Shown one piece after another: positions 47,048 to 53,263 of a stretch of DNA of 64,000 nucleotides. The notes below the pieces were generated by a model. The model saw only the letters and a program-made list of their open reading frames with translations. It searched no databases and was not told the origin of the DNA. Every line of letters starts with the position of its first letter. Position 1 is the first letter of the stretch. Made by a program: the position numbers and the translations under genes. The DNA comes from Synergistota bacterium (GTDB lineage: Bacteria > Synergistota > GBS-1). The stretch is from NCBI GenBank assembly GCA_025060595.1, contig JANXBX010000006.1, positions 62,001 through 126,000 on the forward strand. The letters are read 5' to 3'.

Positions 47048-48085
47048 CTATAGGGTGGGAGGAATGGAGCTCAAAACATCCTTCAATATCTCAATGGAAA
47101 TAAGATATTCCTTCAAATTTATGTGCTCTCTCGGAGTGTGATCAAGGGAGCTATCACCAGGGCCATAAGCCACTGAAGGACAACCCCAAGCCGGAGCAAG
47201 CAAGTTCATATCGGCTGTACCGCTCTTCATCTTATGCTTCGGAGTTAAGCCTCTTCTTCTTATAGCCCTGTTAAAGGCTGAAACTAAAGGATTGCTTCTG
47301 TCACACTTATAAGCTTTAGCCTTAAAGTGTGGTACCCAACCATCGCCTAATATATTAAGAAGATCATCGGGATCAAGCCACAAGGGAAGCCTAAAGGAGA
47401 TCCCCAGGTCAAGCCTTTCAAACAAACCATCGCTAAAAGATCTTATTTCCCTAACCTTTATATCAACCCTATCTATAGAGCCATCTCTACCTTCGTTTAA
47501 CCCTTCTAAAAGCTTAGATATATCATTTAGGCTCCTTAAACCTTCCTCTATAGCTCCATCGTTTCCAGAAGCAGGGTGAGAAACCTCAGAGATAAAGCTC
47601 TTCTTTATAAACAATGAGCCCTTGTATCCTAATGTAACTCCATCAATACCGCTCGGCTCACCTATTATTAGATAAGAGGGTGGCTTTGAAACCTTCTTTA
47701 AAAGATGAAGAGCTCCTGTCGATGGTCCCTCCTCTTCAACTGCACCAACTACTACAAGCTTAAGATGCTCAGGAATAGAAACCTCAGAAGCAGCCACTAT
47801 AAAGGCTGCTAACGGACCTTTTGCATCAACACTTCCCCTACCATAAAGAAGATCACCATCGATTCTCGGCTCTATCCATCCAGGAGCTGTATCCATATGT
47901 CCCACAAGATAAACCTCGGTTTGCCCTTTACCACGAACAGCGATAAAGTTTCCTACCTCATCCAAATAAGCTTCATCAAAATTAAGATTCTTTGAAGCAT
48001 CAAGTAAAAACTCACCTATTTCCTTTTCCTCTCCAGCGAAGCTTTTTATCTCAACCATCCTGCGAAGAAGCTCTATCGGACACAT
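47048..48085 (-). CDS. lysK: [LysW]-lysine/ornithine hydrolase
   Basis: 345 residues of the M20-like LysK family, with VYLVGHMDTAPGWI near 60, YGRGSVDAKGPLAAFIVAA near 80-100, and EEEGPSTGALHLL around 118. It releases lysine or ornithine from the carrier protein LysW in the final step. ATG at 48085 overlaps the LysJ end by 35 bases. The upstream AGGAGG is 13 bases away, longer than usual. It ends the operon. Confidence 0.9.
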   Translation of the reverse strand: MCPIELLRRMVEIKSFAGEEKEIGEFLLDASKNLNFDEAYLDEVGNFIAVRGKGQTEVYLVGHMDTAPGWIEPRIDGDLLYGRGSVDAKGPLAAFIVAASEVSIPEHLKLVVVGAVEEEGPSTGALHLLKKVSKPPSYLIIGEPSGIDGVTLGYKGSLFIKKSFISEVSHPASGNDGAIEEGLRSLNDISKLLEGLNEGRDGSIDRVDIKVREIRSFSDGLFERLDLGISFRLPLWLDPDDLLNILGDGWVPHFKAKAYKCDRSNPLVSAFNRAIRRRGLTPKHKMKSGTADMNLLAPAWGCPSVAYGPGDSSLDHTPREHINLKEYLISIEILKDVLSSIPPTL

Positions 48086-49253
48086 CTCTTGAAAGCACCC
48101 TCCTAACTTTATCTACGACAAAAAGGATTTCCTCCTCACTTATAACAAGAGGAGGAAGAAACCTCATTACAGTAGGCCCAGCTTGAAGGGCTAAAACCCC
48201 TTCTTCAGCCAGAGCCTTAAGGTAAGGGGCGCTCCTTTTCTTTAACTCGATACCTATCATTAAACCTAAACCCCTTACATCTTTAACAAAGGGGGAATCT
48301 ATGCTTTTCAATCCATCGATAAATAAACCACCTAATTTTTCAGCCCTTTTGTCGAGGACCTTCTCTCTCATAAACCTTATTGCCGCCCTCGCAGCAGCAC
48401 ATGAAAGAGGATTTCCGCCAAAGGTCGAACCATGGGTTCTAGATGGTACTTTGCCTAAAGACTCTCTCATTACGACTGCACCTATAGGAAGACCTCCTGC
48501 CATACCTTTAGCTAAACAAACCATATCAGGGGAAAGATCATGCCACTGGAAACCGAAGAACTTACCGGTTCTACAGAAACCAGTTTGAATTTCATCAGAT
48601 ATAAATAAAGCCCCTTTACTTTTACAAAGATCCTGAGCAAATCTTAAAAACCCCCCACTTATAGGGTAAACCCCTCCTTCACCCTGAACGGGCTCGAATA
48701 TAAACGCTGCAGTATCTTCATCTATCGCCTTCTCAAGCTCTTCCCCATTCTCTGGTTCCACGTGAACAAAACCCGGAACCAACGGTTCAAAAGGCTCTCT
48801 ATATTTAGGATTCCAAGTAGCGCTTAAGGCCCCAAAGGTTCTTCCATGAAAACCCCTTTTCAAAGCAACTATCTTCTTTCTCCCTGTTAGAAGTCTCGCA
48901 AACTTTATAGCCGCTTCAATAGCCTCTGTACCACTGTTACATAAAAAAACGCTACCCATATACTCCGGCATAACATCAAGAAGCTCTTTATAAAGAAGGG
49001 CTCTCTCCTCATGATAAAAAGTTTCGGAGCAAACTATAAGTTTTTTAGCCTGCGTTTCTATAGCTTCAAGAACATAAGGATTAGCATGCCCTACTATGCC
49101 TACCCCGTGCCCTCCAACACAATCTATATATTCCCTCCCCTGATCATCCCAAACTCTAGCTCCCTCTCCCCTAACTAACCTCAAGGGCACCTTGGGATAT
49201 ACTCCACTTCCATACTTCTCTTCCAGCTCTATCAGATTCAAGGTTAAGCTCAC
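48051..49253 (-). CDS. lysJ: [LysW]-aminoadipate/glutamate semialdehyde aminotransferase
   Basis: 400 residues, PLP aminotransferase class III, ArgD/LysJ type. LEEKYGSGVYPKVPLRLVRG and YIDCVGGHGVGIVGHANP near the start are typical of LysJ. NSGTEAIEAAIKFAR, the GFHGRTFGALS motif and the Lys of AKGMAGGLPIGAV bind PLP. It converts the LysW-bound semialdehyde to the amine. GTG start at 49253. The first 83 bases overlap the lysZ reading frame. Confidence 0.92.
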   Translation of the reverse strand: MSLTLNLIELEEKYGSGVYPKVPLRLVRGEGARVWDDQGREYIDCVGGHGVGIVGHANPYVLEAIETQAKKLIVCSETFYHEERALLYKELLDVMPEYMGSVFLCNSGTEAIEAAIKFARLLTGRKKIVALKRGFHGRTFGALSATWNPKYREPFEPLVPGFVHVEPENGEELEKAIDEDTAAFIFEPVQGEGGVYPISGGFLRFAQDLCKSKGALFISDEIQTGFCRTGKFFGFQWHDLSPDMVCLAKGMAGGLPIGAVVMRESLGKVPSRTHGSTFGGNPLSCAAARAAIRFMREKVLDKRAEKLGGLFIDGLKSIDSPFVKDVRGLGLMIGIELKKRSAPYLKALAEEGVLALQAGPTVMRFLPPLVISEEEILFVVDKVRRVLSRDVSDRASSQDG

Positions 49254-50061
49254 TCCTTCCTCTAAATATGGTTCCTTTACCCTGGAGAGCTGATATAATC
49301 GGGCTCTCGATACAACCAGAGGCTATTACACCTTCCCTGACTCCTCCTCTAACAGCTTCAAACAATGCCATCACCTTTTTCTTCATTCTACCTTTGGCTA
49401 TCTGAAGTATCTCCTCTTCCATGTCAAGAGAAACCTCTTGAATTAAGCTTTCAGGATCACTTAAATCCCTTAAGAGGCCTGGCACATCCGAGAGAATAAC
49501 CAAGCTTTCACTTCCTAAGGACAAAGCTATCTTTGATGCAAGGGTATCTCCATCAACGTTAAGGAGCTCTCCATTAAAGCCAAAGGCCAAGGGAGCTACT
49601 ACAGGAACAAAACCCATATTTAAAAGCTCCCTTAAGAAAGAATCGTTAATCCTCTCTATCTTGCCGGAGTAGTCATCTTTTATAACCTTAACCTTCCCAT
49701 CAGGTGTAAGAGCCTTTATAATCTTCCTCTCGGCTTCAATCAGCCTACCATCGGCTCCGCTTAAACCTATAGCTTGAACCCCTATGCTTTGAAGCTGAGC
49801 AACAAGAAATCTGTTTATCTTTCCAGCACACGCCATAACAAAGACTTCAAGAACCTCTTTCGTCGTTCTTCTGCTTTCAAACCCAGAAGGAGAAACCACC
49901 TTTTCTACCTCGACACCTAGCTTCCTTGATAGCTCATTTGTAGCCTCACCACCGCCATGGACTATAACAAGCTTTTCACCCATATCATAAAGCCTTTTAA
50001 TATCACTGCATACATTTTTGAAATTCCCATTCAGGCTTCCACCTATCTTTAAAACTATCAA
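49171..50061 (-). CDS. lysZ: [LysW]-aminoadipate/glutamate kinase
   Basis: About 296 residues of the amino-acid kinase fold (ArgB/LysZ): IVLKIGGSLNGN at the start, VIVHGGGEATNEL, VPVVAPLAFGFNGELLNVDGDTLA and SDVPGLL. It phosphorylates the LysW-bound acid side chain. I use TTG at 50061, about eight bases after AGGGGGG; the longer frame from 50097 would overlap lysY. The carboxy-terminal about 28 residues run through the lysJ start and look non-conserved. Confidence 0.9.
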   Translation of the reverse strand: MIVLKIGGSLNGNFKNVCSDIKRLYDMGEKLVIVHGGGEATNELSRKLGVEVEKVVSPSGFESRRTTKEVLEVFVMACAGKINRFLVAQLQSIGVQAIGLSGADGRLIEAERKIIKALTPDGKVKVIKDDYSGKIERINDSFLRELLNMGFVPVVAPLAFGFNGELLNVDGDTLASKIALSLGSESLVILSDVPGLLRDLSDPESLIQEVSLDMEEEILQIAKGRMKKKVMALFEAVRGGVREGVIASGCIESPIISALQGKGTIFRGRSELNLESDRAGREVWKWSISQGALEVS

Positions 50062-50074
50062 AAACTTCACCCCC

Positions 50075-51103
50075 CTAAACGGGATAAACAGGTACAAGCT
50101 TTAACCCCATATCTTCAGGCAATCCCAAAGCGATATTAGCCGCTTGAACTGCACTGCCTGATGCTCCTTTAACCAGATTATCTATAACGCTTACCACGGT
50201 TAATGCTCTTCCACCAGGATGAAGTTTAAGCCCGATCATACAAAGATTAGTCCCTGTAACCCATCTTGGATCAGGAAAACGAAGATGCTCCGGCTTAAAA
50301 GGACAGAGCTCAATAAAAGATTCAGAAGAATATCTATCCCTATAGATCTTAAGTATCTCCCTTTCACTAAGATCCTCTTTAAGCTCACATCTAACAACAG
50401 CTTGAATACCTCTGACAAGCTCAACAGCTGTTATCCTTATCTCTCCATTAACTCCCGTCTCTTGAGTGACCTCAGCAAGGTGCCTATGCTCATAAGTAGC
50501 ATAGATCCTTAAGGCCCTGCTTCTTTCTGGATGATGTCCGCCCTCTGAAGGCTTAGCTCCTCCCGCAGAAGAACCAACCCTTACATCCGCATGAAAACTT
50601 TCCAATAGCTTCTTCTCAGCCAATGGCAAAAGAGCCAAATTTATAGCTGTTGCATTACATCCCACACCCGAGATCAACTTAGCGCTTCGTAACTCCTCTC
50701 TATGAGCCTCGGGAAGACCATAGACTGAACTTTTCAGAAGCTCCGGATAAGGATGGCTCCAAGAGTACCACTTTTCATACTCCCTGGGCTCCTTAAGCCT
50801 GAAGTTAGCGCTTAAGTCAACAACCTTTTTCCCCTTATCGTATATTTCTTTAACGAGATCAGCTCCCTCACCATGAGATAGAGCAACAAAGGCTATATCA
50901 AAATCCTCATCAAGGGCTTCTCCGTAACTTATAAAGTTATCCTTAAAAAAAGGCCTTAGGTGAGGATGATACCTCCAGATGGGCTCCCCTACCGCCCCCT
51001 GAGAGGCAACGCCTATAACCTTTATCCCTTCATGAAAAGAAAGTATCCTCAACAGCTCTCCTCCAGTGTATCCCCTTCCTCCGAACACAATAGCCTTTAT
51101 CAC
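50075..51103 (-). CDS. lysY: [LysW]-aminoadipyl/glutamyl phosphate reductase
   Basis: 342 residues, ArgC/LysY type. Motifs are the NADP-binding GGRGYTGGELLRIL, the catalytic Cys in ISGVGCNATAINLALLPL, and PSEGGHHPERSRAL with the histidine region near 200. It reduces the LysW-bound acyl phosphate to the semialdehyde. GTG start seven bases after AGGAGG, overlapping the upstream ligase by 4 bases. Confidence 0.93.
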   Translation of the reverse strand: MIKAIVFGGRGYTGGELLRILSFHEGIKVIGVASQGAVGEPIWRYHPHLRPFFKDNFISYGEALDEDFDIAFVALSHGEGADLVKEIYDKGKKVVDLSANFRLKEPREYEKWYSWSHPYPELLKSSVYGLPEAHREELRSAKLISGVGCNATAINLALLPLAEKKLLESFHADVRVGSSAGGAKPSEGGHHPERSRALRIYATYEHRHLAEVTQETGVNGEIRITAVELVRGIQAVVRCELKEDLSEREILKIYRDRYSSESFIELCPFKPEHLRFPDPRWVTGTNLCMIGLKLHPGGRALTVVSVIDNLVKGASGSAVQAANIALGLPEDMGLKLVPVYPV

Positions 51104-51993
51104 GAAAGCACCTCCTCAACATAGTCAGCTATCATCTCTCCCACATCGATTCCAACATCTCTGGATGATCTTGCAAACTCTGGCGTAGAATTAACTTCAT
51201 TAACTAGAAGCCCTCTTTCGCTCTCAAAGAGATCCAAAGCTATAAAGTCTCCACCAACGATAGAAGCCACCTTTTCCGATATTCTAATTAACTCATCACT
51301 TACGGAACATAACGCAGCTTTAGCTCCTCTAGCCGTATTTGTTACCCAATGGGAAGAGCTTCTATAAACCGCATACTTAACTTTCCCACCTATAACAAGA
51401 ACCCTGATATCCCTTCCAGGCTTCCTTACATACTCTTGAATATAAAAGGCCTTCTGATGAACTCCTCCTAAGTTCCAGCGACAAAATATTATAGCTTCGG
51501 CAGCATCCCTATCATTAACCTTTGCTAAGAGCCTTCCCCAGGAACCGTTAACGGGCTTTATAACAGCAGGATAACCAATCTCCTCTAAGGCCTCTAAAGC
51601 CTTCTCAGGGGTAAAAGCAAGATAGGTACGGGGAACAGGAATTCCCTCCTTGGCCAAAAGCTCGGTAGTCAAAGCTTTATCGTTACAGACGACCATTGTT
51701 CTAAAGGGATTTATAACCTTAACTCCCCTATCCTCAAGCAAAAAGGATATATAAGTAGCCTGAGAGGCACTTAAGGTTCTATTTATAGCTAATCTAGCTC
51801 CAGGAACTCCATTACCTAACTCCCAAAGGGTCCTATTCCCCAGAACCTTTTCCACCTTTATCCCCCTTCTACTTAAAGCTTTATCTATTATCCTTTCCTC
51901 ATCCCTCAAAATCGTATAGATTAAGAGAATCTTCTTGTCCTCCGTCCCAAGGCTACTCCCCCCAATCCTCTTCAACCTCGGGAGCAACCTCAA
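51100..51993 (-). CDS. LysX/ArgX-type LysW ligase, downstream copy
   Basis: About 297 residues as opened, RimK/ATP-grasp fold. Shared core: [52 protein letters not shown] and FIALDLFESERGLLVNEVNSTPEF. It joins the amino group of glutamate or 2-aminoadipate to the LysW carboxy-terminal Glu. The start is unresolved: the TTG at 51993 overlaps lysW by 41 bases, while an ATT at 51930 lies eight bases after GGAGG. NSTPEF replaces the NHSPEF of the neighbouring ligase, so it may be the glutamate-specific ArgX. Confidence 0.85.
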   Translation of the reverse strand: MRLLPRLKRIGGSSLGTEDKKILLIYTILRDEERIIDKALSRRGIKVEKVLGNRTLWELGNGVPGARLAINRTLSASQATYISFLLEDRGVKVINPFRTMVVCNDKALTTELLAKEGIPVPRTYLAFTPEKALEALEEIGYPAVIKPVNGSWGRLLAKVNDRDAAEAIIFCRWNLGGVHQKAFYIQEYVRKPGRDIRVLVIGGKVKYAVYRSSSHWVTNTARGAKAALCSVSDELIRISEKVASIVGGDFIALDLFESERGLLVNEVNSTPEFARSSRDVGIDVGEMIADYVEEVLS

Positions 51994-52123
51994 GCTCCAA
52001 AGGATTAAGACTCACAATCTCAAGTTCAACACCACAATCAGGACATATAACAATTTCTCCCACCTCTGGATCTTCAAGCTCTAATACCACATCACACTCA
52101 GGACAACGAGATTTAATCACCAT
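51953..52123 (-). CDS. lysW: LysW amino-group carrier protein
   Basis: 56 residues starting ATG at 52123, about seven bases after GGGGGTG. Two CPxC zinc-ribbon halves (RCPECDVV near 7-14, VICPDCGVELE near 26-36), an acidic patch and the exact carboxy-terminal motif EDWGE, whose terminal glutamate is the site of substrate attachment. It shields the amino group of glutamate or 2-aminoadipate during lysine/ornithine synthesis. Overlaps the downstream ligase. Confidence 0.97.
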   Translation of the reverse strand: MVIKSRCPECDVVLELEDPEVGEIVICPDCGVELEIVSLNPLELEVAPEVEEDWGE

Positions 52124-52137
52124 TAAATTCACCCCCA

Positions 52138-52974
52138 TCAAAGGAAACTTTTTATATACCTTACTATCTCCCCTGGTATGTCCACACCCGTAGGGGCAAT
52201 GCTATTTCTAAACTCAGGGGAGTGATTTATCTCGTTAACCAAGAGCTCACCCGAGGGTGTCTCAAAAATATCAAGGGCTACCACCTCTCCATCTACAGCA
52301 CGAGCTGCTCTTTCAGAAAGCTCAACTAGCTCAGAAGTTAATGGGCAGTTTCTAGCTTCACCACCACGAGCGGTATTTGTTATCCAGTGAGGCGAAACCC
52401 TATATATGGCAGCAACACACTTGCGTCCTATAACGAAGCTTCTTATATCCCTGCCAGGCTTATTCACATACTCTTGAATATAGAAGATCTTCTGAAGCCC
52501 ATTTCCTAAAGTGTACTTATGTTCCAATACCGCCTCAGCCGCATCTTTATCATTAACCTTCGCTAAAAGCCTTCCCCAAGAACCATTAACAGGCTTAACA
52601 ACCGCTGGATATCCAACCCTCTCTATTGCCTTTAAAGCATTCTCTGGAGAAAAAGCAAGATAAGTACGCGGAACAGGAATACCATTTTCCACCAAGAGAA
52701 GAGTTGTTATAGCTTTATCTAGACAGCTAGATATTGCCCTAGAGGAACTTATTACCCTTATTCCGTTACTTTCAAGGACCCGCGATACATAGAAAGCATG
52801 AGAGGCTGAAATAACGCGGTTTAAAACCACCGCAGGGGGTTTAATAGAAAGCTCCCCATTAGCAAAGAGAGGAAGTAAAAGACTATCCTCGTGAAGAAGA
52901 TTTAGAGCAACACCCTCCCTTTCAAAGGCATCGATAAGCAACTTTTCCTCAACTCTTAACCTTGAGTAGACCAT
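52138..52974 (-). CDS. LysX/ArgX-type LysW ligase, upstream copy
   Basis: 278 residues, ATP-grasp ligase. Core motifs [82 protein letters not shown] and [15 protein letters not shown]. The last two match Thermus-type LysX more closely, so I favour the 2-aminoadipate ligase. ATG at 52974 lies inside a 12-codon mini-ORF behind AAGGAGG, so its own SD is weak and coupling is likely. First structural gene after the attenuator. Confidence 0.88.
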
Positions 52975-52994: not shown

Positions 52995-53030
52995 GTCAAC
53001 CACCCTCCTTAAAAGATAGATATAAAAAAA

Positions 53031-53061
53031 GCCCCGCTCACCCTGGGAAGGTGAGCGGGGC
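53031..53061 (-). terminator. Attenuator terminator of the LysW operon
   Basis: Perfect 12-bp stem, GCCCCGCTCACC with GGTGAGCGGGGC (53031-53042 and 53050-53061), loop of seven bases, followed on the minus strand by seven T. It lies between the leader ORF and the first ligase gene. Confidence 0.93.
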
Positions 53062-53188
53062 TTTTAAAAATCCCTAGAGTTTAGCTTCAGCCTAAAGCTG
53101 AAGCAATAAACCCACCTTCCCAAGCCCTAAGCTTAGGCTTCTTGTAACCCTTGTTCCGCTTCAAAAGAGACTTGGAAAGATGAGCCTT
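53044..53188 (-). promoter_or_regulatory. Attenuator with mutually exclusive pairings, LysW operon leader
   Basis: Three pairings compete on the minus strand. Region 1, CTTTCCAAG (leader codons 8-10), can pair with region 2, CTTGGGAAG. Region 2 (TGGGAAGGTG, 53113-53122) is an exact 10-base complement of region 3 (CACCTTCCCA, 53044-53053), which is the loop and 5' arm edge of the terminator. Pairing 2 with 3 would abolish the terminator; pairing 1 with 2 would allow it. A further hairpin, GCTTCAGC with GCTGAAGC, spans the leader stop codon. This is a classical 1-2-3-4 attenuator layout. Confidence 0.8.
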
Positions 53189-53200
53189 TAAATTAATCAC
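53087..53200 (-). CDS. Lys/Arg-rich leader peptide of the LysW operon
   Basis: 37 codons, GTG start at 53200 nine bases after GGGAGG (53210-53215), stop TGA at 53087. It has seven Lys codons (all AAG) at positions 5, 10, 14, 17, 20, 21 and 23 and Arg at 15 and 25, so nine of residues 5-25 are Lys or Arg; the rest of the peptide is unremarkable. A ribosome slowed by low lysyl-tRNA around codons 14-23 would cover region 1 and leave region 2 free, favouring antitermination. It has no homologue I can name. Confidence 0.8.
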   Translation of the reverse strand: MINLKAHLSKSLLKRNKGYKKPKLRAWEGGFIASALG

Positions 53201-53233
53201 CCCAATTAACCTCCCTCACCAATTATCGCGCAT

Positions 53234-53263
53234 AATATAGCATACTACTCTCTTCCCTGTCAA
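53234..53263 (-). promoter_or_regulatory. Promoter of the LysW operon
   Basis: On the minus strand a perfect TTGACA (53258-53263) and TATATT (53234-53239) are 18 bp apart. The start of transcription would lie about 25 bases before the leader-peptide GTG. The 457-base gap upstream of the first ligase also holds the leader ORF, attenuator and, on the plus strand, only weak signals for the anion permease. Confidence 0.8.

Follow-up and report, generated by a model that had tools for sequence, protein, structure and literature searches.

The seven-gene LysW operon in the analysed DNA (a stretch of 64,000 nucleotides, here called the window) is preceded by a leader that we read, with a probability of roughly 0.6, as a bivalent ribosome-mediated transcription attenuator that responds to both lysine and arginine and controls lysX-lysW-lysX2-lysY-Z-J-K. 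That the element is a ribosome-mediated transcription attenuator, whatever its signal, is very probable. Genomes employed for the comparison include the window's own genome (G000; 1.86 Mb, 34 contigs) and G003 and G002, which belong to other genera of the same family and are the two with contigs extending to the leader site. The comparative set for the leader therefore consists of three homologues from one family. The fourth family member, G001, belongs to the same genus as G000 and is uninformative on the leader because its contig ends inside lysX1, short of the leader site.

All parts of the element lie on the minus strand, in the order promoter, Shine-Dalgarno sequence, leader ORF and terminator, ahead of the operon. 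The sigma-70-type promoter (53234-53263) consists of TTGACA (53263-53258), a 17-18 nt spacer and CTATAT/TATATT (53240-53234), and would be expected to start transcription near 53228. The Shine-Dalgarno sequence GGGAGG (53210-53215) precedes a leader peptide ORF of 37 codons (53087-53200; MINLKAHLSKSLLKRNKGYKKPKLRAWEGGFIASALG) with a GTG start and a TGA stop, in which seven Lys and two Arg codons all fall within codons 5-25; the probability of at least nine Lys plus Arg codons in 21 codons was about 2e-4, before correction for the choice of stretch. Segment 1 (the protector, or anti-antiterminator) covers codons 5-10 (53171-53187) and is followed by the control codons 14-22 (53135-53161) and by segment 2 at codons 26-31 (53108-53124), whose partner is either segment 1 or segment 3. 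The stop codon is contained in a 9-bp hairpin, GCUUCAGC..GCUGAAGC (53084-53104), which is a probable pause hairpin. A small GGG...CCC hairpin (53058-53074) is predicted to tie up the base of the terminator 5' arm when the antiterminator forms. Segment 3 (53044-53056), formed by the upper 5' arm of the terminator and its loop, is the antiterminator partner of segment 2. The intrinsic terminator (53024-53065), identified from sequence and fold, has a 16-bp stem of 12 GC-rich and 4 A-U pairs and a T run.

Segment 2 was found to contain TGGGAAGGTG (53122-53113), the exact complement of CACCTTCCCA (53053-53044), and with G·U pairs counted this 2:3 antiterminator reaches 13 bp (53122-53110 with 53056-53044). 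Codons 8-10 (53179-53171) are complementary to 53124-53116 and form part of a 1:2 stem of 17 contiguous bp, again with G·U counted (53187-53171 with 53124-53108). The initial annotation of this DNA had put forward the promoter, the GGGAGG site, the 37-codon ORF with its Lys and Arg codons, the 10-base and 9-base pairings and a 12-bp terminator; direct reading of the minus strand bore these out together with their coordinates, the two pairings being parts of the longer ones given above and the 12 bp being the GC-rich pairs of the terminator stem. Folding of the leader gave z = -6.15, with none of 200 shuffles equally good. Both pairings were jointly equalled in 1-3 of 2,000 trials per genome when the peptide was kept fixed and codons were resampled by usage, and in none of 2,000 trials when the codon order was shuffled.

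The leader peptide was searched for in 61 genomes, giving clear matches in G000 and G003 and a weaker one in G002 (E 0.003), each directly 5' of lysX1. In G003 and G002 both promoter elements, TTGACA and the -10 region, line up with those of G000, and a GGAGG precedes each leader as well. All three leaders have 37 codons, with the TGA inside the same conserved hairpin (9 of 9 pairs kept in each genome) and at an identical spacing of six codons past segment 2. The peptide motif LKRNKxxKKP is conserved in all three, with K14, R15, N16, K17, K20, K21 and P22 kept; codons 13-17 and 20 are identical across the genomes, compared with an invariant codon at just 34% of the invariant residues of lysX1.

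The pairings themselves are also conserved, and the mutually exclusive 1:2, 2:3 and 3:4 structures are present in all three genomes. Two-sided compensation is clear for the 1:2 stem, of which 12 core pairs are kept in each genome with changes such as U-A to C-G and A-U to G-C, and for the 3:4 (terminator) stem. For the 2:3 antiterminator, 12 of 13 pairs are kept in every genome and changes are one-sided only, since segment 2 has two partners to satisfy. Across the aligned cells of the termination structure in the three genomes, 93.7% are standard pairs; nine pairs carry two-sided changes (shuffled mean 4.6, with none of 500 shuffles as high), and this signal was lost when partners were slid by 1-3 columns. 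The small GGG...CCC hairpin is predicted in all three genomes, yet has just 3-6 bp and is out of register in the alignment, and the terminator of G003 has a short, interrupted T run. With the Lys codons conserved and compensatory changes found across G000, G003 and G002, conservation and covariation lend strong support to the earlier proposal of a ribosome-mediated attenuator ahead of a LysW operon.

An RNA model searched against 185 genomes of the phylum scored strongly in G000, G003 and G002 and returned no further strong member, so that the element is, as far as seen, confined to this family. Weak matches in G103 and G043 (E 0.003 and 0.026, respectively) look like chance and are without lysW-operon genes nearby. 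A Lys-rich short ORF before lysW at L028, L031 and L036 was considered as a second leader and rejected because it sits upstream of the TTGACA promoter.

Every sequence-level feature of an attenuator that was tested was found in this element (a leader ORF with a Shine-Dalgarno sequence after the promoter, a cluster of codons for the product, a terminator, exclusive pairings and the position of the stop codon), and a mechanism can be proposed on this basis. When charged tRNA-Lys and tRNA-Arg(CCG) are plentiful, the leading ribosome would reach the TGA, segments 1 and 2 would pair, and segment 3 would be left free, allowing the terminator to form. A shortage of Lys or Arg would make the ribosome stall at K14, R15 (CGG), K17, K20 or K21 and mask or separate segment 1, and the 13-bp 2:3 structure would pair before the 3' arm of the terminator is made, leaving the operon to be transcribed. 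Because most of the control codons sit within the 1:2 loop, a ribosome at K17-K21 would have to block the 1:2 stem by steric separation and not by covering segment 1.

Folds were modelled with the ribosome at different positions. In G000, G003 and G002 alike, a transcript extending as far as segment 3 adopts the antiterminator when a ribosome occupies codons 14-21 and the 1:2 stem when no ribosome is present. If a ribosome at the stop codon is taken to cover about 18 nt upstream of the A site, segment 2 falls immediately 5' of the covered stretch and is left free for segment 1. Most of the terminator 5' arm is predicted to be sequestered in the antiterminator state, since the second small hairpin covers part of the arm base. 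In the finished RNA the terminator is still the lower-energy fold with a stalled ribosome in place; for that reason antitermination would have to be kinetic, as in textbook attenuators.

The operon downstream, also on the minus strand, begins with lysX1 (52138-52974, signature EFRNS; TIGR02144, 326 bits), followed by genes for the carrier protein lysW (51953-52141; TIGR01206), lysX2 (51100-51993, signature EFARS; TIGR02144, 306 bits), lysY/argC (50075-51103; TIGR01850), lysZ/argB (49171-50097; NF010659, [LysW]-aminoadipate kinase), lysJ/argD (48051-49253; profile match) and lysK/argE (47048-48085; TIGR01902 above cut-off and NF003367 just below). lysX1 and lysX2 flank lysW, and a tree places lysX2 as a lineage-specific paralogue of lysX1 that arose by duplication within this lineage and separately from the LysX/ArgX pair of archaea. 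The residues after EFR are N-T in archaeal LysX and G-F in archaeal ArgX (PMC10433800); when this published signature is mapped onto our alignment, a mapping of our own, lysX1 would be of the LysX type by its N-S after EFR. The EFARS of lysX2 was compared with the LysX (N-S/T) and ArgX (G-F) types and fits neither.

argG and argH are present and ArgJ was not found, so ornithine is probably made via LysW. The features of a bifunctional Lys/Arg LysW pathway were found together, namely LysW, LysX/ArgX-type ligases, argG/argH and no ArgJ, X2 being a putative ligase. The lysX duplication, the presence of argG and argH and the lack of argJ together make it probable that the operon supplies both lysine and arginine and that the leader senses both; a shared Lys/Arg operon with a leader sensing both tRNAs is the simplest reading.

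The arginine signal is carried by codon 15 (53156-53158), which is CGG in all three genomes. Among the 61 sense codons, CGG was the least used in the genes sampled from each genome (0.84, 1.57 and 1.27 per 1000), making up 35 of 2,030, 22 of 888 and 9 of 463 Arg codons, and the naive product of the three shares (8e-6) is an overstatement because the genomes share ancestry. A tRNA-Arg(CCG) gene is present in the window's genome. Five Arg T-boxes were found in the three genomes, ahead of carAB in G000 and G003 and of argG in G000, G003 and G002, all with GAA-A-CGG-G; that of carAB in G000 lies at 681-941 of the window (minus strand), with the carAB genes past the window edge. By the usual T-box layout (B. 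subtilis glyQS), we take CGG to be the specifier of all five. As a separate observation, UUGAAGCGG (codons 13-15, 53156-53164) could pair over about 9 bp with UUGCUUCAG (53098-53106, minus strand) at the stop-codon hairpin, similarly in G003 and G002, and such a pairing could be an alternative, RNA-level reason for the invariant CGG.

The initial annotation had held lysine, not arginine, to be the main signal. A monovalent lysine attenuator, in which the Lys codons alone matter and CGG is incidental or a fixed pause, would account for the conserved control codons being four Lys (K14, K17, K20 and K21) to one Arg (R15) and for a first gene of the LysX type. It would also accord with some lysW operons of relatives in other families of the phylum, which have T-boxes with AAA or AAG (Lys) at the specifier position (full matches at L019, L020, L023, L027 and L029, and the antiterminator only, in the same context, at L033), all of these matches scoring below the gathering threshold; the same six loci have LysX-type EF[KR]NS signatures. 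We nevertheless consider it unlikely that lysine acts alone, given that the one conserved Arg codon is invariant, is used less than any other sense codon in each of the three genomes and is the same as the inferred specifier of the five Arg T-boxes, and given that the pathway context fits both amino acids, with ornithine probably supplied via LysW where ArgJ is absent.

The opposite reading, an arginine attenuator of a true arginine operon, would need lysine to be made by another route and the Lys codons to be mere context, and its standing depends on how lysine is made in this family. The lysine branch is uncertain, with the aminoadipate route partly supported: G000 has candidates for each step (homocitrate synthase, homoaconitase and homoisocitrate dehydrogenase), the homocitrate-synthase candidate being below cut-offs. 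The DAP pathway is patchy across the family, with LysA in G000 and G003, DapF in G000 and G001 only, and none of LysA, DapF and DapB in G002. The presence of LysA in G000 and G003 and of DapF in G000, together with argG/argH and the absence of ArgJ, would suit an arginine operon. That reading is nonetheless made quite improbable by the Lys codons, which are conserved and more numerous than the Arg codons, by the LysX signature of X1, and by DapB, which was not found in the family (sub-threshold matches only); the DapB-like match in G000 (L084 1501-2511) was identified as 2,4-diaminopentanoate dehydrogenase (Ord) and not DapB.

Some further observations were made on these genes. The presence of Ord in G000 suggests that the organism ferments ornithine as well as making it. 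The homocitrate-synthase-like gene is intact in G000 (L077 9104-10315), carries an in-frame TAG in G003 (L080 7939-9104) and was not found in G002. Two pilin-like genes (L076 9617-10234 and 12092-12652; type IV N-terminal motif recognized by eye) lie around a leuCD/homoaconitase-like pair between argG and lysA in G000, and are absent between argG and lysA in G003.

Stalling might also be due to the nascent peptide, with LKRNKxxKKP arresting in the exit tunnel in a metabolite-tuned manner as opposed to simple codon starvation. L13, N16 and P22 are conserved though they are not control codons, and basic stretches followed by Pro are translated slowly; against this, a stall caused by excess product would raise expression when it should fall, a rare CGG would serve no purpose, and the N-terminal residues are highly variable, so that peptide arrest appears a poor prospect. 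A plain intrinsic terminator with a chance ORF ahead of it would explain the strong terminator, but is already disfavoured, and scarcely credible, given that three genera have kept the ORF in length, codons and position as well as both pairings, with compensatory changes, and given the chance controls on the pairings and on the Lys and Arg codons.

The bivalent attenuator can be set beside several known systems. A leader-peptide attenuator of the lysine (LysW-type) gene cluster of Thermus thermophilus was reportedly described in 2005, and for this reason the present kind of element is not new; the claim of the initial annotation that no such element had been described holds at most for this lineage. 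The two are alike in having a leader peptide, transcription attenuation and a LysW-type lysine pathway; they differ in phylum, and among the features of the present lineage are the rare Arg CGG and the duplicated lysX. The 1:2 / 2:3 / 3:4 architecture is the same as in the trp, his, thr, leu and ilv attenuators of Proteobacteria, among which multivalent control codons are known in thr and ilv and rare control codons in leu. Unlike those attenuators, the present leader has its control codons mostly in the 1:2 loop and not inside segment 1, an extra hairpin over the terminator base, and both Lys and Arg signals. T-box riboswitches (RF00230) sense the same tRNAs, through AAA/AAG on the lysW operons of other families and CGG on carAB/argG, whereas the proposed sensor here is the translating ribosome and not an RNA-bound tRNA; no T-box match (Stem I, antiterminator bulge GGUGG) was obtained before lysX1. 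Lysine riboswitches share lysine-responsive leader control, and no Rfam match to their aptamer was obtained in or near the leader. The novelty is that such an element is present in this lineage, that it likely combines Lys with an Arg signal on a rare codon which T-boxes also use, and that one operon appears to have changed between a T-box and a leader peptide within the phylum.

For a wider scheme we put the chances at about even: tRNA-Arg(CCG), the reader of the rarest codon, would serve as a dedicated sensor of arginine starvation in the carAB and argG T-boxes and in the leader attenuator, the leader would integrate lysine for a shared Lys/Arg LysW operon, and the lysW operon of the phylum would have been swapped between a tRNA-Lys T-box and a leader attenuator. 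With a single carrier protein, LysW pathways can make lysine, arginine or both, and the balance between the products has been little studied; a leader reading both amino acids, if true, would solve this simply. The match between the rare CGG of the leader and the inferred Arg T-box specifier would offer a clean case for asking why a tRNA isoacceptor that is hardly used is retained, and the phylum may serve as a natural experiment, with the same operon under one or the other of two sensors for one tRNA.
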